Under the pieces are notes generated by a model, which was given only the letters and a program-made list of their open reading frames with translations, was not told where the DNA came from and did no database searches. Position numbers and translations under genes: made by a program. 56,697 nt of DNA from Vicinamibacteraceae bacterium (GTDB lineage Bacteria; Acidobacteriota; Thermoanaerobaculia; Multivoradales; Multivoraceae), in NCBI GenBank assembly GCA_012270995.1, contig JAAXHG010000087.1:1-56697 (forward strand). Reading direction: 5' to 3'. Numbering within the stretch: the first letter of the stretch is position 1; every line of letters begins with the position of its first letter. Of the stretch, positions 324 to 56,697 are shown one piece after another.

Positions 324-3413
<3,090 letters not shown>

Positions 3414-3678: not shown

Positions 3679-3720
3679 ACCATCCCCAGGACTTGGCGCG
3701 TCGAGACACTGAACGACACG

Positions 3721-4434: not shown

Positions 4435-5199
4435 GTGCTCGAGATCCAGACGATCCCCGTCCTGAGCGACAACTACTCCTACGTGCTCCACGACACGGGA
4501 AGCGGCAAGATCGCGGTCGTCGACCCGCCCGAAACCGGTCCGATCGAAGCGGCGCTCTCCGCCAGCGGTTTCGGCATCGACTGGATCGTGATCACCCACC
4601 ACCACATGGATCACATCGCCGCGGTTCCGGCACTGAAGGAGAAACACGGTTGCCAGGTGGTCGGGCCCGCCGCCGACCAGCATCGGATTCCGGGACTCGA
4701 CCTCCTGGTACGCGAGGGTGATCGCTTCCAGCTCGGCGAAGCCGAAGCACAGGTGTTCGATACGCCCGGCCACACCACGGGACACATCACCTACTGGTTC
4801 GAGGACGACCGGGCGCTCTTCTGCGCCGACACGCTCTTCGCCCTGGGCTGCGGCCGGGTGTTCGAGGGCACGATGGAACAGATGTGGGAATCGCTGGCCA
4901 AGCTGCGGGCGCTACCCGACGATGCGATCGTCCACTGCGGCCACGAGTACACCCTCTCCAACGCCCACTTCGCCGTGACCGTCGATCCCGACAACGAGGA
5001 ACTGATGGAGCGGGTCGCGGAGATCGAGGAGCTGCGGAGGGACGGCAAGCCCACGGTGCCCTCGAAACTGGGGGTCGAGAAGCGGACGAATCCCTTCCTG
5101 CGACCCGACGACCCGGGCATCCGCACCCTGCTCGGCATGGCCGGCGCCTCCGACGCCGAGGTCTTCGGCGAGATCCGGACCCGCAAGGACAACTCCTGA
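4435..5199 (+). CDS. gloB: Hydroxyacylglutathione hydrolase (glyoxalase II)
   Basis: A 254-residue metallo-beta-lactamase-fold enzyme. It hydrolyses S-lactoylglutathione to lactate and glutathione, the second step of methylglyoxal detoxification. The binuclear metal site is visible: THHHMDH gives H55, H57, D59 and H60; PGHTTGH gives H113; CADTLF gives D132; HCGHEYT gives H170. The C-terminal part has the glyoxalase II helical region with NPFLR. The length matches the family (about 250). The start is GTG 4435; a -10-like TATAGT lies at 4364-4369. The gene stands between the HigBA pair and an amidohydrolase on the same strand. Confidence 0.92.
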   Translation: MLEIQTIPVLSDNYSYVLHDTGSGKIAVVDPPETGPIEAALSASGFGIDWIVITHHHMDHIAAVPALKEKHGCQVVGPAADQHRIPGLDLLVREGDRFQLGEAEAQVFDTPGHTTGHITYWFEDDRALFCADTLFALGCGRVFEGTMEQMWESLAKLRALPDDAIVHCGHEYTLSNAHFAVTVDPDNEELMERVAEIEELRRDGKPTVPSKLGVEKRTNPFLRPDDPGIRTLLGMAGASDAEVFGEIRTRKDNS

Positions 5200-5263
5200 C
5201 ACCCGCAACGGCTGGATGGGCCGTGGAACACCTCCCGTCTTCGTGAATGTAGGAGTCACGCGC

Positions 5264-6262: not shown

Positions 6263-6351
6263 CTCCGCGGGAGAGGCCATTCGCCACTCCGGGCCTGGGA
6301 GCGGGGCCATCCTTCGCATCCGGCACGAACCGTCGCGTAAGGTGAGAAGCC

Positions 6352-7404: not shown

Positions 7405-7450
7405 GCCGCGGAAGATGAGCTGGAAGCCCGAGACGGCCGTGATCGAGGCG

Positions 7451-7456
7451 TAGACT
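7451..7456 (+). promoter_or_regulatory. Candidate -10 box (TAGACT) before the GWxTD/VWFA gene
   Basis: TAGACT lies 29 bp before the ATG at 7486. The same hexamer recurs at 14153-14158 and, on the minus strand, at 51236-51241. I found no good -35 match, so this is a weak individual call that gains weight from the recurrence. Confidence 0.35.
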
Positions 7457-7485
7457 AGGACGCTCTGCCTAAGGGGCGGTCCACG

Positions 7486-10143
7486 ATGCGCTGCAACCCC
7501 CTCATCCGAGCCTTCCTTGTCGCCGTCTCCGCGGTCCTGCTCGCGTCCGGCGCCGCGACAGCCGCCAAGAAGAAGCGGCCCCCTTGCCAGGACGGCCGTC
7601 AACCCGATGCCGGCGCCCTGCCGGCCCGCCACCTCCAGTGGACCGAGGAAGTCGCCCTGCTGCTCACCGATGAGGAGATTCAGTCCTTCCTCTGCCTGTC
7701 CCAGGACTACCAGCGGGACGCCTTCATCACCGAGTTCTGGAAGGCGCGCGACCCCTACCCCGAGACCGCCCGCAACGAGTTCCGCGAGCACTGGGGCGAA
7801 CGGCTGTCCATGGTCCGCCAGTTGTTCGACAGCACGGACGACGAGCGGGCCCGGTACTACCTCCTGAACGGCCCGCCCGAAATCCACGTCGACATCTGTC
7901 CGCGGCGTTCCGCCACCAAGGTCGAGGCCTGGTTCTACGGCTTCCGGGACATGAGCGAGGTGATCGGCGCGATCTACAGCCGCCGGCTCCGTCAGGACCA
8001 GTACGCCGTCATCTTCTACCGGCCGTTGGGAGTCGGCGCCTGGCGGGTCTGGCTGCCGAACGAGGACCTCGGCCGCCGGCTGATGCAGCCCGGCGGACGA
8101 ACCGACCTGCCCGGCGGGCGTCTCGGCGGACTGAGCCGCGAGGAACTCGGAGCCGGCTGCAAGGACGAGGAACTCGGCTACGCGATGGGCATCATCCAGA
8201 TCCTGAACGACTGGGGCGGCATGCTGGGCTTCTACTACGACCGGATGATCGGCGAGAAGCTGGAACCGATCGAGGCGCCCTCCAACGAGTGGCTGCGCAC
8301 GTTCGAGTCCTATTCCACCGATCTTCCCTCCGGCGCACCGCAGCTTTCGGCCTCGCTCGACGTGACCTTCCCGGGCCGCAAGGAGAGCCGCACCGTGGTC
8401 CAGACCCTGGTCCAGGTCGAGGCAGCCAGTGCGACTCTCGCCGACCTCGCCGGCGCCCGTTCCTACGGTTTCGAGCTGATCGGAGAGATTCTGCGGGCGG
8501 ATGCCGACACCGGGGACGACCGCCTGTTCGAGAGCTTCCGCTATCGCTTCGAGTTCCCCGTGGAGGACGACGGGGCAAGCGGCGACGAACTAGCCGCCAT
8601 GCCGCTCGTCGCCCAGCGCTATCTGAGGCCCGGGAGCTTCAAGCTGATCCTGCGCGTCGACGATCTGAACGGGGACGCGGTGTGGCGCCACGCCCAGCCG
8701 CTCGAAGTGCCCCGGGTCGAAGAGGCCGCCGGCTGGACCGAAGCCGACCTCGAACCGATCTTCGCCGAGGCGAATCGGGCCCTGGCCGCCGGCGAGCCGA
8801 CGATCCGGATCATCGAGCCCGGCGGCGACCTGATCTCCGGCTACCTCCGCTTCGACACCGCGGTGACGGGCCCGGTCGACAAGGTGCGCTTCACCCTCGA
8901 CGACAAGGACCTCTTCACCACCAAGCGGGCACCCTTCAGCGCCGACGTGCGACTGGGCGATCTGCCCCGCAGCCAGATGCTGCGCGCCATCGCCTATGAC
9001 GCCGCCGGCGACCAGATCGCCAGCGACTCCTATCTGATCAACGGCTCTCCCCACCGCTTCGACGTGCGGATCATCGAGCCGATCCCCGGCAACCGTCACA
9101 GCGACAGCGTCCGCATGCGAGCCCAGGTCACGGTGCCCGAGGGACGGAGCCTCGAGGAACTCCAGGTGTTCCGCAACGACGACCAGGTGGCAACGCTCTA
9201 CGAAGAGCCCTTCACCGTACCCATCGAGCTGCCGGACGGACCGGCGCTGACGATCGTGCGGATCGTCGGCAAGCTGCTCGACGCCGAGGGTCCGGCCGCC
9301 TTCGTCGAGGACACCGCGATCATCAATGGTCCGGCCACCCTCGAAGAAGTCCAGGTCGACTTCGTGGAGCTGTACACGACGGTCGACGACCGGGACCGCC
9401 GGCCCCTGCTCGATCTCCCGGAGAACGCCTTCCGGGTGCTCGAGGACGGAGTCCAGCAGGAGATCGTCCGTTTCGAACGCGTCGACGACACGCCGCTGAT
9501 CGGCACGATCCTCCTCGACGTCTCGGCGTCCATGGAGGAGCGCCTCGAACGGTCGGTTCAGGCCGCCGCCGACTTCTTCCAGCAGGTGATCACCGATCGC
9601 GACGAACTCTCCATCATCACCTTCAACGACCGACCGCATCTAGCGTCGCCCTTCACCCGCGACCGGATCGAGTTCGCCAAGGGGTTGATGGGACTGCGCG
9701 CCGAGCGCGGCACCGCGCTCTACGACAGCCTGATCTTCACCCTCTACCACCTGAATGGGCTGCCCGGCCAGCGCACGGTCCTGCTGCTCTCCGACGGCGT
9801 CGATGAACACAGCCGCTACGACCTGGACGACGCACTGGAGTACGCCCGCCGCTCGGAAGCGGCCATCTACGCGATCGGCCTGGCGCTGCCGAAGAAGGCG
9901 AAGGAGAGCCCGAAGAAGGTGCTCGAGCAACTGGCGACCGAGACGGGCGGCCGCGCCTTCTTCGTCGACGACGTCAGCCAGCTCGGCGCCGTCTACGACC
10001 AGATCGCGGTCGAGCTTCGCTCGAAGTACTTCCTCGCGTACCAGTCGTCGAGCACGCAGCCGAGCGACGCCTTCCGCAGGGTGGAAGTGCAGATCGACGC
10101 CAGGGGCGCCAAGGCGCGGACGATTCGCGGTTACTACCCGTAG
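7486..10143 (+). CDS. Secreted GWxTD-region plus VWFA-domain protein (Acidobacteria type)
   Basis: An 885-residue exported protein. The signal peptide is residues 1-26 (hydrophobic core FLVAVSAVLLASGAATA). Residues about 60-140 resemble the GWxTD region found in Acidobacteriota and relatives (FWKARDPYPETARNEFREHW, then RYYLLNGPPE), although the GWxTD tetrapeptide itself reads STDDE here. The middle holds beta-rich, Ig-like segments. The last 300 residues are a VWFA-related domain with TILLDVSASMEERLE (MIDAS-like DxSxS), TALYDSL and LLSDGVDEHS. The function is unknown; VWFA domains usually bind metal and protein partners. The gene ends one base into the start of tag. A second VWFA-related protein lies at 27055. 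Confidence 0.75.
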   Translation: MRCNPLIRAFLVAVSAVLLASGAATAAKKKRPPCQDGRQPDAGALPARHLQWTEEVALLLTDEEIQSFLCLSQDYQRDAFITEFWKARDPYPETARNEFREHWGERLSMVRQLFDSTDDERARYYLLNGPPEIHVDICPRRSATKVEAWFYGFRDMSEVIGAIYSRRLRQDQYAVIFYRPLGVGAWRVWLPNEDLGRRLMQPGGRTDLPGGRLGGLSREELGAGCKDEELGYAMGIIQILNDWGGMLGFYYDRMIGEKLEPIEAPSNEWLRTFESYSTDLPSGAPQLSASLDVTFPGRKESRTVVQTLVQVEAASATLADLAGARSYGFELIGEILRADADTGDDRLFESFRYRFEFPVEDDGASGDELAAMPLVAQRYLRPGSFKLILRVDDLNGDAVWRHAQPLEVPRVEEAAGWTEADLEPIFAEANRALAAGEPTIRIIEPGGDLISGYLRFDTAVTGPVDKVRFTLDDKDLFTTKRAPFSADVRLGDLPRSQMLRAIAYDAAGDQIASDSYLINGSPHRFDVRIIEPIPGNRHSDSVRMRAQVTVPEGRSLEELQVFRNDDQVATLYEEPFTVPIELPDGPALTIVRIVGKLLDAEGPAAFVEDTAIINGPATLEEVQVDFVELYTTVDDRDRRPLLDLPENAFRVLEDGVQQEIVRFERVDDTPLIGTILLDVSASMEERLERSVQAAADFFQQVITDRDELSIITFNDRPHLASPFTRDRIEFAKGLMGLRAERGTALYDSLIFTLYHLNGLPGQRTVLLLSDGVDEHSRYDLDDALEYARRSEAAIYAIGLALPKKAKESPKKVLEQLATETGGRAFFVDDVSQLGAVYDQIAVELRSKYFLAYQSSSTQPSDAFRRVEVQIDARGAKARTIRGYYP

Positions 10144-44676: not shown

Positions 44677-45953
44677 CTGCCGACCGCGACCGTGACGACG
44701 AGTTCCGGCCGCTTCGCGTCGGCGACGATCTCGTCGAAGACGCCGCCGTCGATCGACAACGGAATCTCGAACGCCACCGAGCCGTGTTGGATCTGCGCGG
44801 GGATGCCGCGCCCGGCGCGGCCGGCGACGCTGGCGGCGGCGACCGGCGCCTCTTCGGCCGCCAGGCCGCCCCGACGCAGGTCGATGCCGATGTAGACTCG
44901 CCGGGTCGCCCGAGCCGCGTGGACCGCCAACACCACCTTCAGCTCCACGCGGCCGCGGCGCGCCAGGCGTTCGACCCGGACCTGTTCGATCGTGACGCCC
45001 TCGCAGAGGTAGGGCGCGGTGTCGCGGGTGATCCAGCCGTAGCCCTCCGGAAGCGATTCGACTGGCCCAAGCGGCAGACGCAGGACCATTGGCGAGGCCA
45101 TGGCGATGCGTTCGATCGCCGTCGCGTCGACGGCACGGCCCGACTCGGCCGTCACCTCGCCGCTCGCCGGCGCGGAGGCGGACGCCGGCGCCAACGCCGG
45201 TGCCGGCCTCGCCTGGGGCGCCGCCCGCGCCGTTTCGACCGGCGCCGTCGGGGCGGGCGAACGCGGTTCGACCGCTACGCCGGCAGACGGATCCGCCGGT
45301 ACGGGCGTTTGCGCGGCGGTTTCGACCGGACGGACAGGCCGCGGCTCGGGGCGGTCGGCGGGCACGTAGTGTCCCTCGAACAGCACCGTCGAAGGTCGGC
45401 CGCCTCGGCCCGCGCGGCGCGACCGGCCGGCGGTCCAGGCGATCCGCCCGTCGCCTTCCAGGCTCAGCCGTTCCCGCCAGCTCGAACTCCGTCCATCCGC
45501 GTCAACGTGCTCGCCGTCGAATACGATCTCCTTGCCGTCTACCGTGCCGTCCGAGCGCACGATGACGCCGAGGCTCGAGACGCTGAACCGCCGCCACGTC
45601 CTGGCGGCCAGATCGAAGGAACTGTAGGTGCGGCCCGACCTGCCGTCGACGAAGGACCATGTCTCCGCGATCAGGCAGCCGCCCTCCAGCTTCTCCACCC
45701 GACTGCTGCCTACCGTCTCGCCGCCCGACGCCAACCGCCATTCGCCGAGCAGGAAGTCCAGAGCCAGGTAGGCGTCGTCCGCTTTGCACGGACCGGAGGC
45801 CTGCGCCGACAGCGGCCCGGCCGCCGCCAGACCAAGACCGCAGAGCAGCACGGGCGCCAGAATCCGGCCGACGGAGCGGCCGACCGCGCCCGGCTTTGCC
45901 GCGCTTCCAGCCCCCGAATCCGTCCATGTCCATGGAGGGCGGGAATGCGGCAT
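44673..45953 (-). CDS. Exported protein of unknown function with a DUF1579-like N-terminal domain
   Basis: About 426 residues from ATG 45953; the start is uncertain. A hydrophobic segment ILAPVLLCGLGLAAAGPLSAQ acts as a signal peptide. Then follows a beta-rich domain, LDFLLGEWRLASGGE, CLIAETWSFVDGRSG and DFDLAARTWRRFS-like strands, reminiscent of DUF1579 lipocalin-like folds. A Pro/Ala-rich linker of about 70 residues leads to a second beta-rich domain of 150 residues. The stop overlaps the start of the ABC exporter, which suggests joint expression. The upstream end lies head-to-head with the coiled-coil gene at 46000. Confidence 0.55.
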   Translation of the reverse strand: MPHSRPPWTWTDSGAGSAAKPGAVGRSVGRILAPVLLCGLGLAAAGPLSAQASGPCKADDAYLALDFLLGEWRLASGGETVGSSRVEKLEGGCLIAETWSFVDGRSGRTYSSFDLAARTWRRFSVSSLGVIVRSDGTVDGKEIVFDGEHVDADGRSSSWRERLSLEGDGRIAWTAGRSRRAGRGGRPSTVLFEGHYVPADRPEPRPVRPVETAAQTPVPADPSAGVAVEPRSPAPTAPVETARAAPQARPAPALAPASASAPASGEVTAESGRAVDATAIERIAMASPMVLRLPLGPVESLPEGYGWITRDTAPYLCEGVTIEQVRVERLARRGRVELKVVLAVHAARATRRVYIGIDLRRGGLAAEEAPVAAASVAGRAGRGIPAQIQHGSVAFEIPLSIDGGVFDEIVADAKRPELVVTVAVGR

Positions 45954-45999
45954 TCGGGCGAGCCAGGCCGCGAAACGGCGGGAAACGGAGTTCACGGAC

Positions 46000-46521
46000 A
46001 TGCAGCGGACGTCAGTTGTAGAGTCGGACAGGGCGTCGACGGAGCGAACCGGCAAGGAGGTTGGATTCGATGGCGAACAGGCTCGGACCCAGGCGGACAT
46101 GACCGGCGCGACCGACGAACGGTCCGCGGACGCCGTGACGAGAGGCGAACTCGCCGAACTCCGCACCGAGATGCGCAGCGGTTTCGCGACGATTCATGGC
46201 CGGACCGACGGCCTGAGAGACGAGACCAACGCCAGGTTCGAAGGCCTGAGAGAAGAGATGAACGCCAGGTTCGAAGGCCTGAGAGAAGAGATGAACGCCA
46301 GGTTCGAAGGCTTGAGAGAAGAGATGAACGCCAGGATGGAGGGCCTGGAGGGCCGACTGAACGCCAAGTTCGAGGGCCTGCGGGACGAAATGAACGCCAG
46401 GTTCGAAGGCCTGGAGGGCCGATTGAAACTCATGCTCTGGTTCATGGGGGTCGGCCTGACGCTCTACACGGGCACGACCGTGTCGCTGATGATCCTCTTG
46501 TTCCGGGACCGCGGCGTCTGA
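46000..46521 (+). CDS. Coiled-coil membrane protein with 11-residue repeats
   Basis: A 173-residue protein. Residues about 45-145 are a long coiled coil built from 11-residue (hendecad) repeats of the type NARFEGLREEM. One transmembrane helix closes the protein (LMLWFMGVGLTLYTGTTVSLMIL) with a short basic tail. The layout resembles DUF1640/CCDC90-like and Bdr-like proteins, whose functions are poorly known. ATG 46000 follows a GGAG about 10 bases upstream. The C-terminal anchor suggests the coiled coil projects into the cytoplasm or periplasm. Confidence 0.7.
   Translation: MQRTSVVESDRASTERTGKEVGFDGEQARTQADMTGATDERSADAVTRGELAELRTEMRSGFATIHGRTDGLRDETNARFEGLREEMNARFEGLREEMNARFEGLREEMNARMEGLEGRLNAKFEGLRDEMNARFEGLEGRLKLMLWFMGVGLTLYTGTTVSLMILLFRDRGV
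46231..46428 (+). repeat. Six tandem 33-bp repeats in the coiled-coil gene
   Basis: Units start at 46231, 46264, 46297, 46330, 46363 and 46396. The first three are nearly identical; the last three have diverged. Each codes for 11 residues beginning ARFEG or a variant. Multiples of 3 keep the frame, so unit number can change the length of the coil without breaking the gene. Confidence 0.85.
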
Positions 46522-46562: not shown

Positions 46563-49500
46563 CTAATCGCCCGCCGGCCTCACGACGAAGAGCAGGTCGC
46601 CCTGGTTGACGACCTGGCCGTTCGCCGCGTTGACGCGCGTCACCTCGTAGCGGGAGTGGCCGGAAAACAGCTCGGCGCCGGCGTCCAGGGACGCGAGCGA
46701 CACCGACCTGAACAGCTTCATCGCCTCGATCAGGCACAGGGTCTTCTCGCGGCTCACGATGTCGCCCGCGCGGACGAAGGGCGGATCGTTCGGGGAGGCG
46801 GCGGCGTAGAAGAGACCGCCGGACGGCGCCTTGACCTTGAGCTCGTCGCTGCCCTCGATCTCGATGTCGGCCCGGTCGACGTTTCGCCCGACGCCCGCGA
46901 AGCGCTCGACCTCGTCCACCAGCTCGTCGCCCGAGATGCGGTCGAGGAAGTCGGCGAGGAAGCGGGTGTCGTAGTCGCCCGACCGGAACTGCTCGTCGCT
47001 CAGGACCCGGCGAAGCAACGGCAGGTTCGTGCATACGCCCTCGATGGCGACTTCCTCCAGGTAGGAGACCAGGCGATCGATCGTGTCCGCGCGATCCCTG
47101 CCGCGGCACACGACCTGCGCGACCAGGCTGTCGTAGTAGGGCGACACGACGGCGCCCGTCTCGATCGTGGCCAGCACGTCGATGTCCTCCCGCCGCGGAA
47201 AATCGCAGCGGGTCACGGTCCCGGGAGAAGGCAGGAGAACGATCCCTTCCGCCGAGAGGGAGGCGCGTTCCGCGTTGATCCGCACCTCCATCGCGTAGCC
47301 GTCCTCGGCGACGGGCTCGTCGGCGATTCTCGCGCCGCCGGCAATGTCGAACTGGGCCTTGACGATGTCCGTGCCGCTCACCGCCTCGGTCACCGGGTGC
47401 TCGACCTGAAGCCGGGTATTCATCTCCATGAAGTAGAGCTTCCGGTCCTCGAGGTCGAAGATGAACTCCACCGTGCCCGCGCCGACATAGCCGATCTCCG
47501 CGGCGATCGCCGCGGCGTAGCGGAAGCTCTCGTCGCGCAGCGCCTCCGGCAACGCCGTCGACCCCGACTCCTCGATCAGCTTCTGGTTGTTCCGCTGGAC
47601 GCTGCAGTCGCGCAGGCCGAGCACGCGCACCGTGCCGTGCTGGTCGCAGAGCACCTGCACCTCGACATGGCGCAACGAGACGACGCACTTCTCGAGATAG
47701 CAGTCCGCGTTGCCGAAGGCGCTCTCCGCCTCGACGCGAATCTGCGCGAACGCTTCCCGGAAGTCCTCCGCCCGGTCCACCCGACGAATGCCCTTGCCGC
47801 CGCCGCCATGGACCGCCTTGAGCATGACCGGGAAGCCGACCTGTTCGGCGACGGCGAGCGCCGTGTCCGCGTCGGTCAGGATGCCCTCGCTGCCGGGCAC
47901 GACGGGTACGCCCACCTGGACCGCCGTCTGGATCGCGTTCGACTTGTTGCCCATCCGCCTCATCGCATCGCCGGTCGGACCGATGAAGTTCAGCCCGTGA
48001 CTCCGGCAAAGATCAGCGAAGGACGCGCTCTCGGAAAGGAATCCGATTCCGGGATGGAGGGCGTCGGCCCCTTCCCGCTCGGCGATGCGAATCACCGAGT
48101 GGGCGTTCAGATAGCTCTCGTCCGGCGTGCTGCCGCCGATGCAGACCAGCGTGTCGCGTTCGCGCAGCATCGTGGCTGCAGGCGAGTCGACGTCTGGATC
48201 GGATTGCACCAGGATCACTTCGACGCCGGCCCGCTGCGCCACGCGCACGAGCTTCACGGCGGTGCAACCCCGCGCGTGGATCAGCGCCCGCTGCACCTGG
48301 CGCGGGGCGACCAGAGGCGCGGGCTCGTGGACCTCCGCCGCTTCCTGCCGCCGCAGGCGGGCGGTCAGGAACTCGACGCGTCGTTCCTCCTGGAGCAGCC
48401 GCTTCAGAACGGCATCGACGGTGTCCTCGGGAACCGGAATCTGCGAATCGATCTGACGCAGCTGCTCATCGAGCTCCTCACCGAAGGGATGCTCGACGAG
48501 CCCGTGCATCGCCCCCCCGACCTCGCTCAGGTAGTTCGAGAGAGTCGAGGCCATCGGCAGGTGCGAGGGAACGACGATCTGCCCGGCGAAAGGCATGTTC
48601 GTGCCCGAGAAGTACCAGGTCTGGACCAGGGGATGGGTGACCAGGCTGGCCTGGGCGCCTCCGGTGCAGTCGCCGTAGCCGAAGCAGATCACCGGCAGGT
48701 CGTTGTCCCGGACGAAGCGGGTGATCCGATCGTTGACGATCGACATCGAGAACAGGGCGCCGGCGCCTTCCTTGGTCAGCATGCCGCCAGAGGAGATGAA
48801 ACAGACGACAGGCAGGCGCTCCTCCGCGCAGCGGAGCAGGAGCTTGCAGAACTTCTCCGCGCTCGCCATGTCGAACGAGCCGGCCTGGAAGGCAAGATTG
48901 GACACCAGCACGCCGACCCGGTTCCCCGCGGCGCCGCCGTCCTCCCCGTCGGCCGGGGCGCCGGTCCGGATCCGGGCCAGAGCCGCCACCGTCCCGCACG
49001 GCGTGACTCCCTGCTCGAGCGCCCGCTCGATCGATACCCGCAGTCCGGGGAAGCTCACCGGATCGGCGGTCATCCGGTCCGCTTCGATCTCCTGCACGTC
49101 CTGGAAGAAGCGGTCGAGAATCGCCTGAGGCCGGCGCGGCGTGTTCCGCTTCTGCTCGGCCAGGACGTCCTCGAGCAGCAGGTCGCGGTAGGCCGCGTCG
49201 AGACGGTTCCAGAAGTCCTTGATGCCGATGTTGCGCGGCGAGATGCGACCGTCGTAGCCGCGGATCCCCTGCTCGTCCTCGTAGAAGTTCGGCAGCAGGC
49301 GTTCGAACAGGAACGTCACCAGGCCGAAGAGCGGCTCGGAGATGCGCGGCATCTGGAGCCGCTTCCATTCGGCCACCGCCTTGAGCAGCCGGCCGCGACG
49401 CGGGTGCCGCGAGAAGTGGCGCAACCAGGAGCGGAACTGCCGGCGCAGACGGGCCTCGGCCTCCTCCGCCGCGTCGCCTTCGAGCCCCGCCGTCAGCTCC

Positions 49501-51224
49501 CCCATCGCCGCGTTCAGCGAATGGCGCAACAGCAGGTGAACCGACTCGCGCGCGATCACGTTGTCCTCGCGCGCCTCGCTGGCGATCGAGCGCAGGTGCT
49601 GGAAGATGTGGTCGTAGAGCCGGTCGAAGCAGATGAAGTTCTCGCACTCGCGCTGGAACAGCCGAAGTAGCCGCGGCTGGAGGATCACGTCGAGCACCGT
49701 GAGGTCGGCGGGCTGGGAACCGTCGCCACGCTCGGAGGCCGGGTTCTCTCCTTCGAGGCCTTCCTCCTCTACCGTCCGCATGACCGTGAGCAGGCGCCCG
49801 AAGTTGTCCTCCGCCCCGTCCTTCCACTGGTTGTACAGATGGAAGCCGTACTCCAGCAGCAGTTCGGCCCGGGCGCGGTTGAAGTGGTACTCGCGGCTGC
49901 CGAGCAGGAAGGACGCGAGCCGGCCCCGTCCTTCGTGGAGCGAGTCGCGCGCGGCCGCGTAGCGCTTGTAGGTCCGGCTCAGAACGTCGTCGTAGCGAAC
50001 CGCCAGCGGGTTGTCGAGCCAGCGCTCGAACGAAACCTTGCGCTGCCGTTCGCGGCGCGCCCGGGCCCCTCCGGCGGGCACTTCGGCCGCGGCCAGGCGG
50101 CCGTAGCTCGACACCGTGGTCGAGCTCAGGCGGCGTCGCAGTCCCAGGTAGCGCAGGTAGCGGAACGCGACGCCGAACACGTTCGCCTGCTCCGCCGGGC
50201 TGTGCAGGCGCGACAGGGAAGCGACTTCCTCGAGCACGGAGAGACTGTGGGACGGATCGACGTACCGTCGCGTGTTGCGGCGGTAGTGCTCGAACACGGC
50301 CGGTTCGTGGCGCACGAACAGCTTCGCGCGTTGCTCCACCAGCGCGATCGACGTGGTGACGGCGGCCTCGAAACAGGCCAGCCGGTCACCCCCCTCGCCG
50401 GGAACGAAGTCGATGACGCCGTCGAGATAGCCCTGCTCGTGAAGCTCGTAGGCCGAAACGCCGACCGCCTTCGCGCACTCTTCCCAGGACAGGTCGTAGC
50501 GGCGCACGATGTTCGCCAAGCCGCGCGGCTGGATCGTGTTGAACACGCCGTCCCGCACCGACAGCAGGACGTTCGTCGTGGCGAGAGGAATCGCGCCGCC
50601 GGAGTAACCGTTGCCGAGCACGACGCCGACCGTCGGCGCGTGAAGCTGCGCCATCTCGGCGATCAGCCGCGAGATCGAGTGGGCCTGATTGCCGCGGTTC
50701 GCCTCCTCGCCGGCGTCCGCGCCGGGCGTGTCCATCAGGGCAACGATCGGCAGCGCTCGACCCGCGAAGGAACGAATGACATCAACCGCCAGCTCGTGGT
50801 GGTCCGGCATCCACGCGCCGTTCCGCACCGAGCGTTCCTGCGCCAACACGCCGAAGCGCCGTCGGTGGCCTTCGATCACGCTTTCGAACACGGCGGCGTA
50901 GAGCGGGCCATGGTTGCGCTCTTCAACCAGCTCCCAGCTCGTCGCGGCCAGCACCGCGCCGGCGCCGAGGCGACCCGGATCTTCGGCCGGGGCCACCGTT
51001 CGGCGAATGTACTCGTCGACCTCCAGCCGGGCGAGGCGCTTGAGCGTCTGGCGGATGCGCCGCTCGGAGATCAAGCCCCCGATGCGCGCACCGCCGTCGC
51101 CAGCCCGCCGGTCATCCGCCTCCGGAAACAGGGAAAACGCCCGAGCCCGCTGCTCCGCCTCGCGGAACAGCGGGTCGACATCGCCCCGCGAGGGCTCCGG
51201 CTGGCTCTGGAGCAGTATCGTCAT
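46563..51224 (-). CDS. Single-chain acyl-CoA carboxylase (CT-alpha, CT-beta, BC, BCCP)
   Basis: A 1553-residue biotin-dependent carboxylase. Residues about 90-300 match the AccA-type carboxyltransferase half (MDTPGADAGEEANRG, GNGYSGGAIPLATTN). Residues 300-720 are a helical region I cannot assign. Residues 720-960 match the AccD-type half (CFISSGGMLTKEGAGALF, FGYGDCTGGAQASL, SGTNMPFAGQIVV) without its zinc ribbon. Residues 975-1440 are biotin carboxylase (GGGGKGIRRVD, FMEMNTRLQVEHPVTE). Residues 1460-1553 are the biotinyl domain with EAMK (K1503). It would make malonyl-CoA or a methylmalonyl-type product from acyl-CoA, ATP and bicarbonate. The BC N-terminus reads ALIHARGCTA instead of the usual IANRGEIA. 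TAGACT at 51236-51241 lies very close to the ATG. Confidence 0.88.
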   Translation of the reverse strand: MTILLQSQPEPSRGDVDPLFREAEQRARAFSLFPEADDRRAGDGGARIGGLISERRIRQTLKRLARLEVDEYIRRTVAPAEDPGRLGAGAVLAATSWELVEERNHGPLYAAVFESVIEGHRRRFGVLAQERSVRNGAWMPDHHELAVDVIRSFAGRALPIVALMDTPGADAGEEANRGNQAHSISRLIAEMAQLHAPTVGVVLGNGYSGGAIPLATTNVLLSVRDGVFNTIQPRGLANIVRRYDLSWEECAKAVGVSAYELHEQGYLDGVIDFVPGEGGDRLACFEAAVTTSIALVEQRAKLFVRHEPAVFEHYRRNTRRYVDPSHSLSVLEEVASLSRLHSPAEQANVFGVAFRYLRYLGLRRRLSSTTVSSYGRLAAAEVPAGGARARRERQRKVSFERWLDNPLAVRYDDVLSRTYKRYAAARDSLHEGRGRLASFLLGSREYHFNRARAELLLEYGFHLYNQWKDGAEDNFGRLLTVMRTVEEEGLEGENPASERGDGSQPADLTVLDVILQPRLLRLFQRECENFICFDRLYDHIFQHLRSIASEAREDNVIARESVHLLLRHSLNAAMGELTAGLEGDAAEEAEARLRRQFRSWLRHFSRHPRRGRLLKAVAEWKRLQMPRISEPLFGLVTFLFERLLPNFYEDEQGIRGYDGRISPRNIGIKDFWNRLDAAYRDLLLEDVLAEQKRNTPRRPQAILDRFFQDVQEIEADRMTADPVSFPGLRVSIERALEQGVTPCGTVAALARIRTGAPADGEDGGAAGNRVGVLVSNLAFQAGSFDMASAEKFCKLLLRCAEERLPVVCFISSGGMLTKEGAGALFSMSIVNDRITRFVRDNDLPVICFGYGDCTGGAQASLVTHPLVQTWYFSGTNMPFAGQIVVPSHLPMASTLSNYLSEVGGAMHGLVEHPFGEELDEQLRQIDSQIPVPEDTVDAVLKRLLQEERRVEFLTARLRRQEAAEVHEPAPLVAPRQVQRALIHARGCTAVKLVRVAQRAGVEVILVQSDPDVDSPAATMLRERDTLVCIGGSTPDESYLNAHSVIRIAEREGADALHPGIGFLSESASFADLCRSHGLNFIGPTGDAMRRMGNKSNAIQTAVQVGVPVVPGSEGILTDADTALAVAEQVGFPVMLKAVHGGGGKGIRRVDRAEDFREAFAQIRVEAESAFGNADCYLEKCVVSLRHVEVQVLCDQHGTVRVLGLRDCSVQRNNQKLIEESGSTALPEALRDESFRYAAAIAAEIGYVGAGTVEFIFDLEDRKLYFMEMNTRLQVEHPVTEAVSGTDIVKAQFDIAGGARIADEPVAEDGYAMEVRINAERASLSAEGIVLLPSPGTVTRCDFPRREDIDVLATIETGAVVSPYYDSLVAQVVCRGRDRADTIDRLVSYLEEVAIEGVCTNLPLLRRVLSDEQFRSGDYDTRFLADFLDRISGDELVDEVERFAGVGRNVDRADIEIEGSDELKVKAPSGGLFYAAASPNDPPFVRAGDIVSREKTLCLIEAMKLFRSVSLASLDAGAELFSGHSRYEVTRVNAANGQVVNQGDLLFVVRPAGD

Positions 51225-51322: not shown

Positions 51323-52246
51323 TCAGTTTCCCCGTTCCTCGGCCCGGGTCGGACCGATCTCCTGCAGTGTCGCCAGGCTGGGAGCGACCATCACCCGTGC
51401 CGCCGTCTCCTCGTAAGCCGCATACATCGAGGGCAGCTTCTCCCGCAGCTCCTCCTGGTCGCGAATCGTCCATTCCTCTTCCCACACGGGGCCGTAGGGC
51501 GCCTGGAGGTTCCAGGCCGTCGTGATGAACCAGTACGCGAACTCCTGCATCTGGACCCGGAAACGGACCTCCTCGTCCTCAAAGTCGGCGTACTGGTCCA
51601 TCTGGTAGTAGCCCTCCTCCGCGGCCTTCGCCATCGCCTTCGCCAGTTCCGAGTCCTCGGCGATGCCCCACACCTCCGGGAACGTGTAGTGCAGGCCGAT
51701 GTCCGTCACGTAGTGGAGGATGTGCTCGACCACCTCCATCACCTGGCCCTGGGGAACGTCCTGCATGATCACGTCGCAGACCGAGTTGTCGCGCTCGATC
51801 GCCGCCCACCGCTCGTCGGTTTCGTCCATGAAGCTGTAGTCGTACCCGAGCGGAACCGGGATCAGAGCGTTGTAGCGATAGTGGTTCGCGAGCACTTCGC
51901 GCTGCAGCTCGGCGTCGAGCCCGGCGTCCCGCGGAAACGACTCGGCGATCGTCCTCGCGACGAGGCGCATGAAGTCGTCCGAGATGTCGTCGCGGGCGGC
52001 GAGCTTGAGGCCGTGCACCTGCAGCTCCTTCGTGAACGGCGGCAGTGCGTCGGTGCGTACCACGTCGCCGCGCAGGTAGACGTCGTCGGGGACTTCTCCT
52101 TTCGGGTCGAGCAGGATGCAGCCGCCGAGATGGGTCGGTGCGGCGTCGGCTGACGCAGTTCCACCGCCATCGGCGCCTTGTCGGTCACCGCACGCCGCGA
52201 TCAAGAGCAGGAGCCACGGGAGCGCGAGCGGCAATCGTCTGTTCAT
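51323..52246 (-). CDS. Lipoprotein of unknown function
   Basis: A 307-residue protein. The N-terminus MNRRLPLALPWLLLLIAACGD has a lipobox (IAAC), so it should be cleaved at and lipidated on C19. The mature part is acidic and helical with many aromatic residues (YNALIPVPLGYDYSFMDET, VEHILHYVTDIGLHYTFPE, EFAYWFITTAWNLQAPYGPVWEEEW). I do not recognise a family. It ends 98 bp before the carboxylase and may be transcribed ahead of it. Confidence 0.65.
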   Translation of the reverse strand: MNRRLPLALPWLLLLIAACGDRQGADGGGTASADAAPTHLGGCILLDPKGEVPDDVYLRGDVVRTDALPPFTKELQVHGLKLAARDDISDDFMRLVARTIAESFPRDAGLDAELQREVLANHYRYNALIPVPLGYDYSFMDETDERWAAIERDNSVCDVIMQDVPQGQVMEVVEHILHYVTDIGLHYTFPEVWGIAEDSELAKAMAKAAEEGYYQMDQYADFEDEEVRFRVQMQEFAYWFITTAWNLQAPYGPVWEEEWTIRDQEELREKLPSMYAAYEETAARVMVAPSLATLQEIGPTRAEERGN

Positions 52247-52407
52247 CGGACACCTCCAAGCAAGAACCGTGAGTCTACGTCAAGGCCAGCAGCGACCTCC
52301 GTTGAAACGACCCATCGGACCGTCGGAGCACTGGTCGGTCGAGGCGAATCGCGTCGAGCCCGCTTGACGTCGCGCTTGAAGCGCGATGAGCGGACCGGAA
52401 CCAGCAC
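52243..52407 (-). pseudogene. Truncated YafQ/RelE-like toxin remnant
   Basis: From GTG 52407 the frame reads MLVPVRSSRFKRDVKRARR. This matches the N-terminal strand and helix of YafQ-type mRNA interferase toxins. After about 19 residues the similarity stops and the frame runs on as unrelated sequence to a stop at 52243, next to the lipoprotein start. Intact YafQ is about 90 residues. It begins 1 base after the stop of the antitoxin remnant, the normal antitoxin-toxin arrangement. Confidence 0.6.
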
Positions 52408-52408
52408 G

Positions 52409-52666
52409 TCAGATAGCGAGATCGCGGAACAGTTCGTCGGCGGTGTCGAAGCGGCGGCCTCCGCCGCTCTCAAGTTCCTCCATCGCCTCAACGGTGGCGC
52501 GGCGCGGCGCCTGCACCGCGAAGGGTAGCCGTTTTCACTCGGCGACGCGCACGAGGAGCAGGCGAATCGCGTCGGAGACCGACAGCCCCATCTCCCGCAG
52601 CGCCTCGGTTGCGCGCTCCTTGGTCGCGCTGTCGATCCGAGCTCTCACTACCGTGTCCGCGTTCAT
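52409..52666 (-). pseudogene. RelB/DinJ-family antitoxin interrupted by an in-frame stop
   Basis: From ATG 52666 the frame reads MNADTVVRARIDSATKERA then TEALREMGLSVSDAIRLLLVRVAE. This is the RelB/DinJ ribbon-helix-helix half, and it meets TGA at 52535-52537 after 43 codons. The same frame continues without interruption as KRLPFAVQAP, then ATVEAMEELESGGGRRFDT and ADELFRDLAI to a stop at 52409. That is the normal C-terminal half of the family; the full length would be 85 codons. A GGAGG ribosome binding site precedes the ATG. The DNA-binding half could still be made. Confidence 0.75.
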
Positions 52667-52681
52667 TCGACTGCGACCTCC

Positions 52682-52706
52682 CGTGTAGCTCTAACGTAGC
52701 TACACG
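52682..52706. promoter_or_regulatory. Palindromic operator upstream of the DinJ-like antitoxin remnant
   Basis: A perfect 9-bp inverted repeat, CGTGTAGCT and AGCTACACG, is separated by 7 bases. It lies 16 bp before the antitoxin ATG at 52666 (minus strand). Its place and form match the autoregulatory site of a DinJ-type module. It has survived although both genes are damaged. Confidence 0.6.
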
Positions 52707-52737
52707 CACGGCCGACGTCAAGCCAGAGACGTACGAC

Positions 52738-52945
52738 GACGTACGACGAGTTCCCCGGCCTACTGGCCGAGTGAGACCGGAGGTAGTCGACCTTGGCGCG
52801 GGAGCGCTTCGGCGGAGGATGGACCAATCGAACTGGGTCGAGCGCCTCGACCTTGTGTACGGGGACGAGAGTTGGCAGGGCCTCTATCGGCCCGATCGCC
52901 AACAGAAGCTCTTGGGATCCCGCGATTCCGAGCTCCCTGGGGTAC
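52738..52945 (+). pseudogene. Remnant of a DUF5131-TcmP gene pair
   Basis: TACGACGAGTTCCCC near 52746 repeats the end of the DUF5131 gene (near 54818). The frame at 52793 reads MARERFGGGWT, the first residues of TcmP (MARERFGGAWT). Right after it, in another frame, comes WVERLDLVYGDESW then QGLYRPDRQQKL, matching TcmP residues 179-205 (WVKRLNHVYGDDSW). About 165 codons between these parts are gone and the C-terminus is missing. It is a decayed second copy of the pair found intact at 54117-55702. Confidence 0.75.
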
Positions 52946-52957
52946 TCTGGACCGGCC

Positions 52958-53614
52958 ATGAACGTATTCATCTACTGGGACAACTCCAACATCTACCATG
53001 AGGCCCAACGCCTTGCCGATGAAAGGGAGGGCACGCCGGGGGCCCGCTACCTCATCCGCGTCCACTTCGACAATCTGCTGCGGCTGGCTCACGCTGACCG
53101 TCCGATGGAGAGGGCCGTGGCCGCCGGTTCGATCCCGCCCGAAATGAAGCAACTCTGGAACCGTATGGAGAACCGAGGCGTGGAGGTCAACCTGTACGAC
53201 CGCGGCACGAGCGGCCTGGGCGAACAGGGCGTACCCGACCAGTGGTTGCAGCTTCGAATGATGGAGGACGGCCTCGATTACAACGGCAACCCCGGAATCG
53301 TCGTGCTGCTGACGGGCGACGGCGCCGGCTACGCGCGGGGCAGAGGGTTCCACAGTGCGCTGGCGCGGCTGCAGCAACGAGGCTGGCCGGTGGAGGTGTT
53401 GTCGTGGGCGCACTCATGCAACCGCGGGATGCGCACGTGGGCGGAAACCAACGGCGTCTTCATCGCTCTCGACGACTACTACGACGCGATCACTCTCCGG
53501 GAACCGTCCCGGCCCGGCTACGAGTTCGCACCGCGACGCGACGCGACCAGGGACTCTTGGACTTGTCGTCGCGACCGAGGGCAACGGGCCAGTCATAGCG
53601 TCGAGGTCAGATGA
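52958..53614 (+). CDS. NYN-domain (PIN-like) putative ribonuclease
   Basis: A 218-residue protein from ATG 52958. It opens with FIYWDNSNIYHEAQ, the NYN signature with catalytic aspartate D8. DQWLQLRMMEDGLDY and IVVLLTGDGAGYARG supply further acidic residues, followed by GWPVEVLSWAHSCNRGMR and the closing strand GVFIALDDYYDAI. NYN domains are metal-dependent RNases related to PIN and are found in RNA decay and phage defence. The last 25 residues are basic and unconserved and may be read-through. It sits between the TcmP remnant and a methyltransferase remnant on the other strand. Confidence 0.78.
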   Translation: MNVFIYWDNSNIYHEAQRLADEREGTPGARYLIRVHFDNLLRLAHADRPMERAVAAGSIPPEMKQLWNRMENRGVEVNLYDRGTSGLGEQGVPDQWLQLRMMEDGLDYNGNPGIVVLLTGDGAGYARGRGFHSALARLQQRGWPVEVLSWAHSCNRGMRTWAETNGVFIALDDYYDAITLREPSRPGYEFAPRRDATRDSWTCRRDRGQRASHSVEVR

Positions 53615-53722
53615 GCCCGGTCGCGGCTGCCAGGTCGGGCGGCACTCCGCGGGTCAGTCGATCGAAGGCCCGCGGAACCCAGCGCGATGTCCGGTACTCC
53701 CGGAGGCTCTGAGTTCGTGCTG
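53607..53722 (-). pseudogene. C-terminal remnant of a DNA methyltransferase (second copy)
   Basis: On the minus strand HELRA is followed, after a one-base frame change, by LREYRTSRWVPRAFDRLTRG and a stop at 53607. This matches the end of the methyltransferase at 55730 (HELKAFGEYRTSRYV, LQAFDQLTRG). Nothing of the preceding 200 residues is recognisable. It faces the NYN gene, as the better copy faces TcmP. Confidence 0.75.
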
Positions 53723-54040
53723 GTCTCTTGCGGCGGTATCCCGGGCGGCATCTCCTGATCCATGGGCGGGATCTCCTTGGGCACTTCGAGGACAGGGAGA
53801 CAGCGGTCGCTTCCGGCTATCGGCGCTTTGGCGTCGGGCCGTTCCTCGTCCGCCAAAGCGGCGAAGGCACGATCGAACTGTCGGCGCCCGCGCTGACCCT
53901 CGGGATAGCTCTCGTTGACGATTCCGGCGCTTCGCTTCGGTAGCGCAATCGCTGCCGATGGAGACGGCGAGCAGCGGGAGATCCCGCCGGCGGTGCATCT
54001 GCGCCAGCGCGGGCCGATCGTTTCGGTTGGCCGCTCACCC
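53723..54040. other. No confident gene; possible decayed coding sequence
   Basis: About 320 bp without a gene I can name. A minus-strand frame reads IVNESYPEGQRGRRQFDRAF then AALADEERPDAKAP and looks protein-like, and another frame upstream reads RPALAQMHRRRDLPLLAVSIG. Neither matched a family from memory. Since both neighbours are remnants, this is most likely decayed coding DNA. Confidence 0.3.
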
Positions 54041-54069
54041 TTGATTTACGCCCTTTTTCCGCTTACTGT
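54041..54069 (+). promoter_or_regulatory. Candidate promoter of the DUF5131-TcmP operon
   Basis: TTGATT (54041-54046), a 17-bp spacer and TACTGT (54064-54069) lie in an unusually AT-rich stretch. Transcription would start near 54076, about 40 nt before ATG 54117. A GGAGG ribosome binding site stands 6 bases before the ATG. Confidence 0.5.
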
Positions 54070-54116
54070 TCAGCTCGCCAAAGGAACCTGACGGTCAACT
54101 GCAAGCGGAGGCCGCG

Positions 54117-54857
54117 ATGGCCGACAAGAGCACGATCGAGTGGACCGACGCCACCTGGAATCCCGTGCTCGGATGCACGAAGGTCAGCGCCGGCTGCGCC
54201 CATTGCTACGCGGAGCGATTCACGGAACGCTTCCGCGGCGTGCCGGGACACCCCTTCGAGCAGGGCTTCGATGTCCGCCTCGTTCCGGCGAAGCTCGACC
54301 AGCCGCGGCGCTGGAGGCAACCGCGCCGCATCTTCGTGAACTCGATGAGCGACCTGTTCCACCCGCGGGTTCCGGCGTCATACATTGCGGAGGTCGGGCA
54401 CGTGATGAGCAGCACCCGGCGGCACACCTTCCAGGTGCTCACGAAACGCCACGACCGCATGCGTCGGCTCTTGAACGACGAGTTGTCGTGGATGGCCAGG
54501 CTCCCGAACGTCTGGTACGGCGTAAGCGTGGAGAACCGCCGCCAAGGACTGCCCCGTCTCGACGCTTTGCGGGAAACACCGGCCACCATGCGCTTCGCCT
54601 CCGTCGAACCCTTGCTCGAGGACCTGGGCGACTTCGACCTCGGCTCCATCGATTGGGTGATCGCCGGCGGCGAGAGCGGTCCGGGGGCCCGCCCGATGCG
54701 CGAGGACTGGGTCTTGGGCGTCCTCAATCAGTGCCGGAGGCAAGACGTGCCGTTCTTCTTCAAGCAGTGGGGCGGCACCCGCAAGAGTCGCAACGGCCGC
54801 CTGCTTCAGGGCAGAACGTACGACGAGTTCCCCCGTCAACTGGCCGGGCGAGGCTGA
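54117..54857 (+). CDS. DUF5131 (phage Gp37/Gp68-like) three-Cys-motif protein
   Basis: A 246-residue protein. It has IEWTDATWNPVLGCTKVSAGC with the three-cysteine motif C20-x6-C27-x2-C30, then ERFRGVPGHPFEQGFDVRL, RRIFVNSMSDLFHP, FQVLTKRHDRM, WYGVSVENRR, WVIAGGESGPGARPM and FFFKQWGG. These are the conserved blocks of DUF5131. The motif resembles a radical-SAM-type cluster site with a widened first spacing. The family is found in phages and mobile islands and is paired with TcmP. Its reaction is not known to me. TcmP begins 12 bases after its stop. Confidence 0.9.
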   Translation: MADKSTIEWTDATWNPVLGCTKVSAGCAHCYAERFTERFRGVPGHPFEQGFDVRLVPAKLDQPRRWRQPRRIFVNSMSDLFHPRVPASYIAEVGHVMSSTRRHTFQVLTKRHDRMRRLLNDELSWMARLPNVWYGVSVENRRQGLPRLDALRETPATMRFASVEPLLEDLGDFDLGSIDWVIAGGESGPGARPMREDWVLGVLNQCRRQDVPFFFKQWGGTRKSRNGRLLQGRTYDEFPRQLAGRG

Positions 54858-54868
54858 AGGTACGCCGG

Positions 54869-55702
54869 ATGGCCCGGGAGCGCTTCGGCGGCGCATGGAC
54901 CAAGGAGAAGCTCAAGGTCTTGCAGCGCTACCTTGAGGCGTACACGACCGCACTCAAGAAGCAGCCGTTCCAACTCTGGTACATCGACGCCTTCGCCGGC
55001 ACCGGCACTGTTCAGCTGCGGAGACCCGAGGACGGCGTCGACGAGTTCCTCGCCGGGTCCGCCAAGCGGGCCCTCGACGTGCAGGGACGGCCATTTGATC
55101 GGTTGATCTTCATCGAGAAAGACCCGAAGCGCTGCAGGGCCTTGGAGATGCTCCGGGCCGAACACCCCGGCCGGGACGTCAGAGTAGAGAACAACGAGGC
55201 GAACTCTTACCTCGCTGGGCTGGCGCCGCCACGGAACGTCCGGGGCGTTCTCTTCCTTGATCCCTTCGCCACCCAAGTTTCCATGAGCACGTTGAAGCAC
55301 ATAGCGACCCTGAAGTGTTTCGACACCTGGATTCTCTTCCCGGTGAGCGCCGTCGCACGACTGCTGCCGACGTCCCGTCAGCCGGACGATGTTTCGCCCT
55401 CGTGGGTCAAGCGACTGAATCATGTCTATGGTGACGACAGTTGGCGGAGTCTCTATGGTCCTGCAGCCCAAAAGAACCTCTGGCAGGCCGTCGAAACCAC
55501 ACGAGAGTCCGGCGTGGCTGAGTTGACCAGCATCTACCGGGCCCGCCTCTCGGAAGCCTTCGGCCGGAGACTCCTCGCAGATTCGGCGGAGCTCAAGAAC
55601 TCGCGCGGTTCCGTCCTCTTTGAACTCATCTTCAGCGTGGGCCATCCCAAGGGCATCCGCCCCGCGAAGAGCATTGCGGCACACCTCCTGAACAAGATCT
55701 GA
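54869..55702 (+). CDS. tcmP: Three-Cys-motif partner protein TcmP
   Basis: A 277-residue protein with a Rossmann methyltransferase-like core: IDAFAGTGTVQL (motif I, residues 39-50), IFIEKDPKRC (motif II), VENNEANSYL (motif III) and VLFLDPFATQVS (motif IV-like DPF, 131-133). The opening MARERFGGAWTKEKLKVLQRYL and WVKRLNHVYGDDSW are typical of the family. TcmP is named for always standing next to the three-Cys DUF5131 protein, which is the case here. It may modify nucleic acid or a protein using SAM, but this is inference. It looks full length and intact. Confidence 0.88.
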   Translation: MARERFGGAWTKEKLKVLQRYLEAYTTALKKQPFQLWYIDAFAGTGTVQLRRPEDGVDEFLAGSAKRALDVQGRPFDRLIFIEKDPKRCRALEMLRAEHPGRDVRVENNEANSYLAGLAPPRNVRGVLFLDPFATQVSMSTLKHIATLKCFDTWILFPVSAVARLLPTSRQPDDVSPSWVKRLNHVYGDDSWRSLYGPAAQKNLWQAVETTRESGVAELTSIYRARLSEAFGRRLLADSAELKNSRGSVLFELIFSVGHPKGIRPAKSIAAHLLNKI

Positions 55703-55729
55703 GCGGTACTCGACCCTTTCTCTCGCCGA

Positions 55730-56620
55730 TCACGCAGCGGTGACGGGCAAGCTGGGCGCTTCGCCGCGGGTCAGTTGATCGAACGCCTGGAGCACGTAGC
55801 GACTGGTCCGGTACTCGCCGAAGGCCTTCAGTTCGTGCTGCTTGAGGAGCGGGAACGAGGCCGAGGGGGGCTCGGCGTCCAGGATCCACTCGAGGTCGGA
55901 GCGGTCGAGGCGGTACATGTGGGCGTAAATCGCGTCGAGTTCGGAGCGGAGGCGATGGCGGCGGTCTTCGTCCCAGGCGAAGGGCGGGCCGTCGTAGCCG
56001 AGGTCCTCGGCGAAAGGGCGCAGTTCGTCCGCGGCGTAGGTCAGTTCCAGGACGCGCGGGACGACGAGTTCGACGTACGTCGGTCCGTGGGCCGCGCGCC
56101 ACAGGTAGGCCTCGGGCGGCAGTACGGGAAGCTGCTTGACGATGAAGAAGTTGAGGTTGACGCCGCCCACGGAGAGCCGGGCCGCCCAGTCGAGCGGCAG
56201 GCTGTTCAGGTTGGCCAGCACCAGGGCCGAGGCGACGGCCCGGGCGTTCGAGTAGTCGACCGCCGGGGCGCTGTTGCCGACGCCGCTTCTCGGCAAGTTA
56301 CCCGAAAGGAGCGTCCGCTCGTCGGTCGCTCGAGTGATCCCGCGGAAGGCCTGAAGCCAAGCCTCCTGATCGACGTTCAGAAGAGGCGCCTTGTTGCTCA
56401 CCGCCGCCTCCGGGAACGCGCCGAGGATCGTTGTTCGCTGGTTCGTCGGCGCCGCGATGTCCCGGAACGCGAGGAGCCAACCAGGATCACGGCCGCGGAA
56501 TGGCCGAACCCGACGTTCGGAATCATGCCGACGACTCCGGTCCGCTCGTTGGTCGCGTTCGTGATCTGGCGGAAAGCGAGTTGCGAGCGCGCTCGGCAAG
56601 GATGTCGAACGTCGACCGGT
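55730..56620 (-). pseudogene. C-terminal part of an Eco57I/DISARM-like N6-adenine DNA methyltransferase
   Basis: On the minus strand a frame from about 56479 to the stop at 55730 encodes about 250 residues: NFFIVKQLPVLPPEAYLW, VPRVLELTYAADELRPFAEDLG, DDRSDLEWILD-type helices and the tail GEYRTSRYVLQAFDQLTRG. This is the target-recognition and C-terminal region of large N6 methyltransferases such as DISARM and BREX enzymes. Upstream, from about 56485 to 56590, similar sequence (AFRQITNATNERTGVVG, MIPNVGFGHSA) continues in a different frame. The catalytic domain is not in the window. It is broken by a frame change, partial at the window edge, or both. Confidence 0.7.
56259..56590 (-). repeat. 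Three degenerate copies of a 40-residue segment in the methyltransferase remnant
   Basis: Reading the minus strand from the right edge: LAFRQITNATNERTGVVG-MIPNVGFGHSA, then LLAFRDIAAPTNQRTTILG-AFPEAAVSNKA, then LQAFRGITRATDERTLLSG-NLPRSGVGNSA. The spacing is about 110-120 bp. Related methyltransferases have this segment once, as far as I know. The first copy is in a different frame from the other two. Confidence 0.7.
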
Positions 56621-56671
56621 TGGCTGGCTCGCGAGGTGGGGTCGGGCGCCGCCGTGATAGCGTTCGAGGGT

Positions 56672-56697
56672 GGTTGACGGTTGACGGTTGACGGTTG
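56672..56697. repeat. GGTTGAC heptamer tandem repeat at the window edge
   Basis: Three full units of GGTTGAC plus GGTTG run into the last base of the window. The array may continue beyond it. Seven-base units shift the reading frame when the copy number changes. It lies about 80 bp upstream of the methyltransferase-like coding sequence on the minus strand. Confidence 0.85.

Follow-up and report, generated by a model that had tools for sequence, protein, structure and literature searches.

Does the DNA methyltransferase whose end faces a DUF5131-TcmP gene pair belong with that pair, or is it the end of something else? The question is raised by 56,697 nucleotides (nt) of contig JAAXHG010000087.1 (here C118; assembly GCA_012270995.1, a Vicinamibacteraceae bacterium with a genome of 5.27 Mb); this whole stretch is hereafter called the window. 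An original prediction, made from the letters alone, had seen two blocks of the same layout, the left one decayed and the right one preserved, and had proposed an undescribed modification or defence unit of DUF5131, TcmP and the methyltransferase. Our analysis points elsewhere: the minus-strand piece is probably the 3′ end of a methyltransferase gene of the ARMADA type I gene set, in which we predict that a repeat of non-triplet unit works as a three-way phase switch.

The methyltransferase gene and its operon

The right-hand methyltransferase, taken at first for a fragment, runs on beyond the window: C118 stops within a heptanucleotide tract, and C131, another contig of the assembly, carries the remainder of the gene. 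A 21-base pattern of this tract is found at only two places in the genome, the end of C118 and C131:5-25. Next to it, C131:47-3295 matches the methyltransferase body of a relative (E 1.1e-290), within a 1,111-codon open reading frame (ORF) that ends in ...PRYWVPAGEVESRLVNRQPSTV and has the same relative strand as the window part. In all five congeners in which TcmP matches over its full length, the sequence from C131:11578 onward follows TcmP at a distance of 13-66 nt. Because the congeners have this sequence behind TcmP, the operon appears to be an insertion at that point, with C118 and C131 meeting at the repeat; congener synteny joins the two contigs independently of the tract. Decay of the right methyltransferase was rejected on the shared tract, the body on C131 and this synteny.

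As described in the available text of PMC12458937, ARMADA type I consists of a YprA-like helicase, a BrxHII-like helicase and a PglX-like methyltransferase, usually in that order. All three kinds of gene are found in this order on C131, all on the minus strand (Table 1): a large YprA/DruE-like helicase (identified by its DruE match), a BrxHII/RapA-like SNF2 helicase and a PglX-like methyltransferase. PADLOC type IIG models also match the methyltransferase part; in two relatives (L059 and L060) Pfam finds an Eco57I domain and names no nuclease domain. The operon, which carries the genes of ARMADA type I, is predicted to be antiviral. The core of DrmA, DrmB and DrmC that accompanies DrmD and DrmMI in DISARM class 1 is absent from the insertion between TcmP and C131:11578, which on the showing of the two contigs holds three genes. 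The top 25 PADLOC hits shown for each protein of the operon include no DrmB or DrmC model, and the large helicase scores 304.6 bits with DruE versus 49.2 bits with DrmA.

A repeat tract ahead of two overlapping frames

Methyltransferase ends of this family were surveyed at 36 loci in genome contigs, for which 428,737 bases were fetched. Tracts of at least 26 nt occur in 17 loci and homopolymers of 9-11 at the same site in four (L071, L075, L077 and L082); of the other 15 loci, seven have no tract of 26 nt (L084-L090), four start shortly before the modules described below (L058, L061, L062 and L081), two show the C-terminal part alone (L069 and L078) and two were not classed for a tract (L080 and L091). 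Twenty tracts of at least 26 nt with units of 2, 4, 5, 7 or 8 nt were found in the bases fetched, every one of them at this spot, and none with units of 3, 6 or 9 nt. The unit itself is replaced from locus to locus (AGACC, CCGAG, ATCGG, CAGA, GGCA, TCGGG, ACCCG, ACCG, GGACA, AG and others). Names attached to tract loci include Caldilineaceae, Dehalococcoidia, Bryobacterales, Acidimicrobiia, Gemmatimonadetes, Rhodothermales, Rhodobacteraceae, Gammaproteobacteria and Planctomycetota.

Three modules with different peptide signatures lie behind the tract: M1 (..RTGIFAMIP..GLSDS) in frame A, and M2 (FRDI..PTNQRT..AVSNK) and M3 (FRGITRATDERT..GVGNS) in frame B. All seven loci without a tract of at least 26 nt (L084-L090) have a single module. 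In one tract-bearing gene (L064, about 7606-8001), some 400 nt of unrelated sequence separate M2 and M3.

The frames were compared in 25 regions (the window and 24 loci), 19 of which were aligned; L061, L064, L069, L070, L077 and L078 were left out as short, interrupted, lacking modules or with a shifted match start. Codon positions were tested in 18 sequences, L067 being dropped, with offsets counted from the NTG codon at which the downstream ORF begins. From -180 to -95, the third position of frame A is the most variable (mean difference 0.513, versus 0.145 at the second position, A2; p=3.3e-7), and after 0 it is the third position of frame B (0.597; p=8.2e-21); the constraint changes frame sharply at about -90. 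In 18 of 19 regions, frame B runs through the overlap without a stop; frame C is stopped between -163 and -121 in 18 of 19 (at -124 in the window), and a frame-A stop stands at +1 in all 19. The overlap codon is NTG throughout (14 GTG, 4 ATG and 1 TTG); GTG makes up 14 of 19 codons here, versus 65 of 251 Val codons downstream. Motifs like the Shine-Dalgarno (SD) sequence precede it in 11 of 19 regions, compared with 16 of 162 control NTG codons.

The frame in which the body is read through the tract could be called at 12 loci: five are in state A (L056, L059, L066, L073 and L075), three in state B (L060, L071 and L082) and four in state C (L068, L077, L079 and L080). Five more loci were excluded: L064, which has an insertion, L067, which has an indel, L070 and L072, which have runs of N, and the diverged L091. 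Proteins such as P0123, P0124, P0129 and P0133 are B forms, which the length limits of the search favour. The gene has two features of phase-variable genes of the simple sequence repeat (SSR) type, a non-triplet tandem repeat within the coding region and differing frames in different genomes.

Slipped-strand changes in copy number would select the frame. Frame A would yield the body with M1 and, separately, the C-terminal chain, whose translation would start anew at the NTG overlapping the stop, to give a split enzyme; frame B would yield a single long fused enzyme of body, M2 and M3, and frame C would leave the methyltransferase off. Within one clone, methylation and the activity of the antiphage operon would then be likely to vary from cell to cell. 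What we infer is that the copy number slips within a clone, that translation re-initiates, that the split enzyme assembles and that specificity or immunity changes. More specifically, and only tentatively, one stretch of DNA may encode in two overlapping frames two alternative ends of the methyltransferase; a repeat that is fixed in site across phyla and repeatedly replaced in sequence would pick the split form with M1 as recognition module, the fused M2-M3 form or the off state, and the ARMADA immunity of a lineage could thereby flip between two activities or two specificities.

Several observations weigh against this scheme. Both contigs end inside the tract, so that the window gene could be given neither a repeat number nor a state, and switching within a population is a prediction made from assembled genomes. 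M2 taken alone has a weak frame-B bias (p=0.073), and the p-values overstate independence, the sequences being related by descent and transfer. The coupling at the overlap is not uniform: an earlier frame-A stop lies 5 to 71 nt before the NTG in 6 of 19 regions, and 8 of 19 have no SD-like motif. An indel in L067 breaks the frame relation, and L069 and L078 show the C-terminal part only. The modules are conserved in sequence and so may not set specificity; a possible place in a TaqI-type specificity domain found no support in the searches made. AlphaFold models were poor (pLDDT, predicted local distance difference test, 48.7 for P0123 and 62.6 for P0121 with 101 homologues) and led to nothing: Foldseek had no match with an E value of 0.001 or below, A3 and the L060 fusion matched no PDB sequence, and the four C-terminal pieces searched had no Pfam match even at E 10.

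The strongest competing explanation, which we consider unlikely, is a plain on/off switch: the frame-B fusion alone would work, A and C would both be off, and M1 would be a leftover of tandem duplication. B is indeed the sole state that yields one full-length chain, on/off switching by a mid-gene tract is known in the type IIG gene cj0031 (PMC4889913, in its available part), and PglX is known to phase-vary. A leftover would not be expected, at such divergence, to retain the NTG/TGA overlap in 19 of 19 regions; M1, moreover, is constrained in frame A (0.145 at A2 versus 0.513 at A3) and has kept a signature distinct from those of M2 and M3. Programmed -1 frameshifting, in which ribosomes would slip from A to B after M1 and make one chain of body, M1, M2 and M3, fits the -1 shift that separates M1 from M2-M3 and the sharp switch of constraint, but seems very improbable: in the stretch scanned, from -145 to the stop, 18 of 19 regions have no slippery heptamer in frame A (L068 has one, CCCGGGA), and there is no homopolymer of 6 or more.

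The reading from which the work started, one duplicated functional unit of DUF5131, TcmP and convergent methyltransferase, could draw on the methyltransferase end behind TcmP in both window blocks and on a close relative that may share the arrangement: its TcmP (P0002, 78%) and methyltransferase end (P0131, 82%) each list a longest contig of 9,329 bases, and we infer that the two lie on one contig. A search of 147 genomes gave 19 with a TcmP match, including the window's own; in none of the 18 others is TcmP followed by a methyltransferase of this family, a count in which the contig holds only 80 nt (L120) and 260 nt (L111) behind TcmP at two loci. Conversely, 35 of 36 methyltransferase loci have no DUF5131 or TcmP in the DNA fetched, and the methyltransferase is part of a separate operon, which was inserted here and is missing from five congeners; we hold the three-gene unit to be most improbable. 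The least credible explanation is that misassembly of repeats created the tract and the frame relations. Contigs do start in the tract or within 12 nt of it (L057, L063, L065, L074, L076 and L083) or just behind it (L058 and L061), and runs of N stand there in L070 and L072; against this, the tract, modules and frames are the same in L059 and L060, whose records (3.0 and 2.3 Mb) are titled as chromosomes, and the codon-position signal lies outside the tract.

Table 1. Features of the window and of the adjoining contig C131 (positions are those of the window unless marked C131)
Feature	Position	Strand	Evidence
(GGTTGAC)n tract, 26 nt, contig end; putative phase-variable repeat	56672..56697	+	TRF
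Module M1, frame A; same DNA open in frame B	56496..56580	-	AFRQITNATNERTGVVGMIPNVGFGHS; frame-A codon-position constraint p=3.3e-7
Module M2, frame B, continuous with 223-aa ORF	56402..56486	-	FRDIAAPTNQRT..AVSNK; frame-B p=0.073
GTGA, frame-A stop TGA overlapping start of downstream ORF	56398..56401	-	NTG 19/19, frame-A stop at +1 19/19
223-amino-acid (aa) downstream ORF (GTG start at 56401): M2 end, M3 and C-terminal part	55730..56401	-	P0121; frame-B constraint p=8.2e-21
Methyltransferase body	C131:3334-1	-	PADLOC DrmMI 1.8e-64, PglX 5.7e-14
SNF2 helicase (BrxHII/DpdE/DrmD-like), 964 aa	C131:6233-3339	-	PADLOC DpdE 1.4e-211, DrmD 1e-81, BrxHII 6.8e-53
DruE/YprA-like helicase, 1,748 aa	C131:11480-6234	-	PADLOC DruE 4.1e-91
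DUF5131 (three-Cys protein, PDC-M41B)	54117..54857	+	PF07505 9.1e-97; PADLOC PDC-M41B 2.8e-101, PDC-M30B 3.8e-99
TcmP (PDC-M41A)	54869..55702	+	TIGR04474 7.6e-49; PADLOC PDC-M41A 1e-65
Left remnant, DUF5131 end and first TcmP codons	52739..52827	+	81% nt identity to 54816-54903, E 2e-18
Left remnant, TcmP codons ~178-204	52834..52912	+	72% to 55403-55481, E 2e-7
NYN-domain gene, 218 aa	52958..53614	+	PF01936 2.6e-8
Left remnant, last methyltransferase codons, same family as right	53631..53777	-	blastn 53647-53722 vs 55764-55840 78%, E 7e-12

The DUF5131-TcmP pair and the left block

DUF5131 and TcmP of the right block are intact, as first read (Table 1). The pair itself is conserved and is already listed in PADLOC as the candidate system PDC-M41; the methyltransferase falls away as a partner. 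DUF5131 adjoins TcmP in 17 of the 18 TcmP loci, the exception being at a contig end, and the strands differ in two of the 17. The two window proteins are adjacent and match both PDC-M41 models; no difference from that system was found, which makes the pair an ordinary member. It stands at the same chromosomal site in the five congeners whose TcmP matches over its full length (G002, G003, G007, G013 and G020), one in-frame stop interrupting TcmP in G020. By sequence comparison, then, this is an independent resident pair beside the methyltransferase operon, a neighbour by insertion. The suggested radical SAM link of DUF5131 goes back to TIGR04471, which scores 80.7 bits, far below its cut-off of 355. 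Weak methyltransferase pieces lie 3.5-8.5 kb from TcmP in 3 of the 18 loci; L090, the single methyltransferase locus of the 36 with DUF5131/TcmP in the DNA fetched, has a single-module methyltransferase and the pair about 3 kb apart on the same strand (1578-7475), possibly in a defence island.

The relation between the two blocks was borne out. Comparison of 52400-54050 with 54051-56697 by blastn gave three colinear matches of the same orientation between 52739-53722 and 54816-55840, all significant (72-81% identity). The left block is indeed decayed, holding only pieces of DUF5131 and TcmP with the NYN gene; its methyltransferase remnant matches residues 233-284 at 38% by tblastn. The stretch 52150-54040 is 1.9 kb long in the window, while its counterpart has 210 nt (G002) or 219 nt (G003) in congeners, so that the left block and the NYN gene are extra DNA here; as a block, 52151-54039, which includes that gene, has no match in the congener loci compared.

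The left TcmP piece (52831-52919) shares 86.5% identity with the TcmP genes of G002 and G020, compared with 72% with its right neighbour, and simple tandem duplication was rejected for it; being closer to those two than to the right TcmP, it appears to be the remnant of another allele. In the same comparison the other two left pieces matched the right copy and no other, so that the left block looks like a mosaic, and we read it as probable debris of an earlier or other allele at the same site. At its left edge, a direct repeat of GACGTACGAC (2.2 copies, 52728-52749) could mark a point of insertion or deletion.

TcmP is also truncated beside DUF5131 in two congeners, to the first 50 codons in G019 (L106, 9435-9584) and 25 in G015 (L107, 8402-8476), so that decay at this pair is not unique to the window; the DUF5131 match of G015 is likewise partial (residues 129-244 only). 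The upstream neighbour (51323-52246) has no Pfam match and flanks the pair in five congeners. Farther upstream, a single minus-strand ORF of 1,553 aa (46563-51224), which may be a fused acyl-CoA carboxylase, has 89-95% protein identity in four congener loci out of five compared and marks a conserved flank. A plus-strand ORF of 245 aa (45784-46521, from the ORF list only) has tandem NARFEGLREEM-like repeats and is probably a coiled coil; opposite-strand repeats lie within its region at 46194-46445.

Meaning and comparison with known systems

Methyltransferase-bearing defence systems can harm their own cell and need restraint. If the proposed switch is real, an ARMADA methyltransferase in several phyla would have two coding states and an off state, and a clone could hold several immune settings simultaneously. 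The switch would also account for the breaks at this gene in contigs of metagenome-assembled genomes, and for the many detached ends of about 220 aa in protein collections (a search with P0121 gave 1,261 matches, most of the 120 listed being of that length). A literature search by titles and the starts of abstracts, in which few subscription papers were covered, found no phase-variable ARMADA methyltransferase, no such switch in ARMADA and no case of an alternative module conserved in an overlapping frame.

Partial likenesses are known, as far as the available parts of the sources go. The type IIG gene cj0031 of Campylobacter jejuni has a polyG tract at 2573 of 3732 bp that turns it on or off (PMC4889913); as in the present case, the tract lies within the gene, whereas cj0031 is an on/off homopolymer system with no conserved alternative module in another frame described there, and its other homologues have no tract. 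In the NgoAV hsdS gene of Neisseria gonorrhoeae (PMC6789123), a tract similarly picks a shortened or a complete subunit and specificity changes; that protein, however, is a type I specificity subunit, the tract is polyG, and the text reports no overlapping second frame. Phase variation at the C-terminus, in which a late repeat alters the end of a protein and sometimes fuses the next ORF, has been described in Helicobacter canadensis (PMC2823697) and N. gonorrhoeae (PMC5320596). It is similar in principle, but those cases are mostly homopolymers with short tails, presented without conservation of a switch site across phyla or a defence methyltransferase of this kind.

Phage-defence methyltransferases of the PglX kind also phase-vary in Pgl/BREX systems (PMC9122589 and PMC6326788), in one case by a homopolymeric tract, and the parts seen of these papers mention no alternative like M1/M2. 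For ARMADA type I, neither a tract nor a split methyltransferase appears in the available text of PMC12458937, the main text of which has no word beginning with "phase". The window operon has the identical three kinds of gene in the usual order, and its methyltransferase differs in having a repeat tract and three modules in two reading frames.

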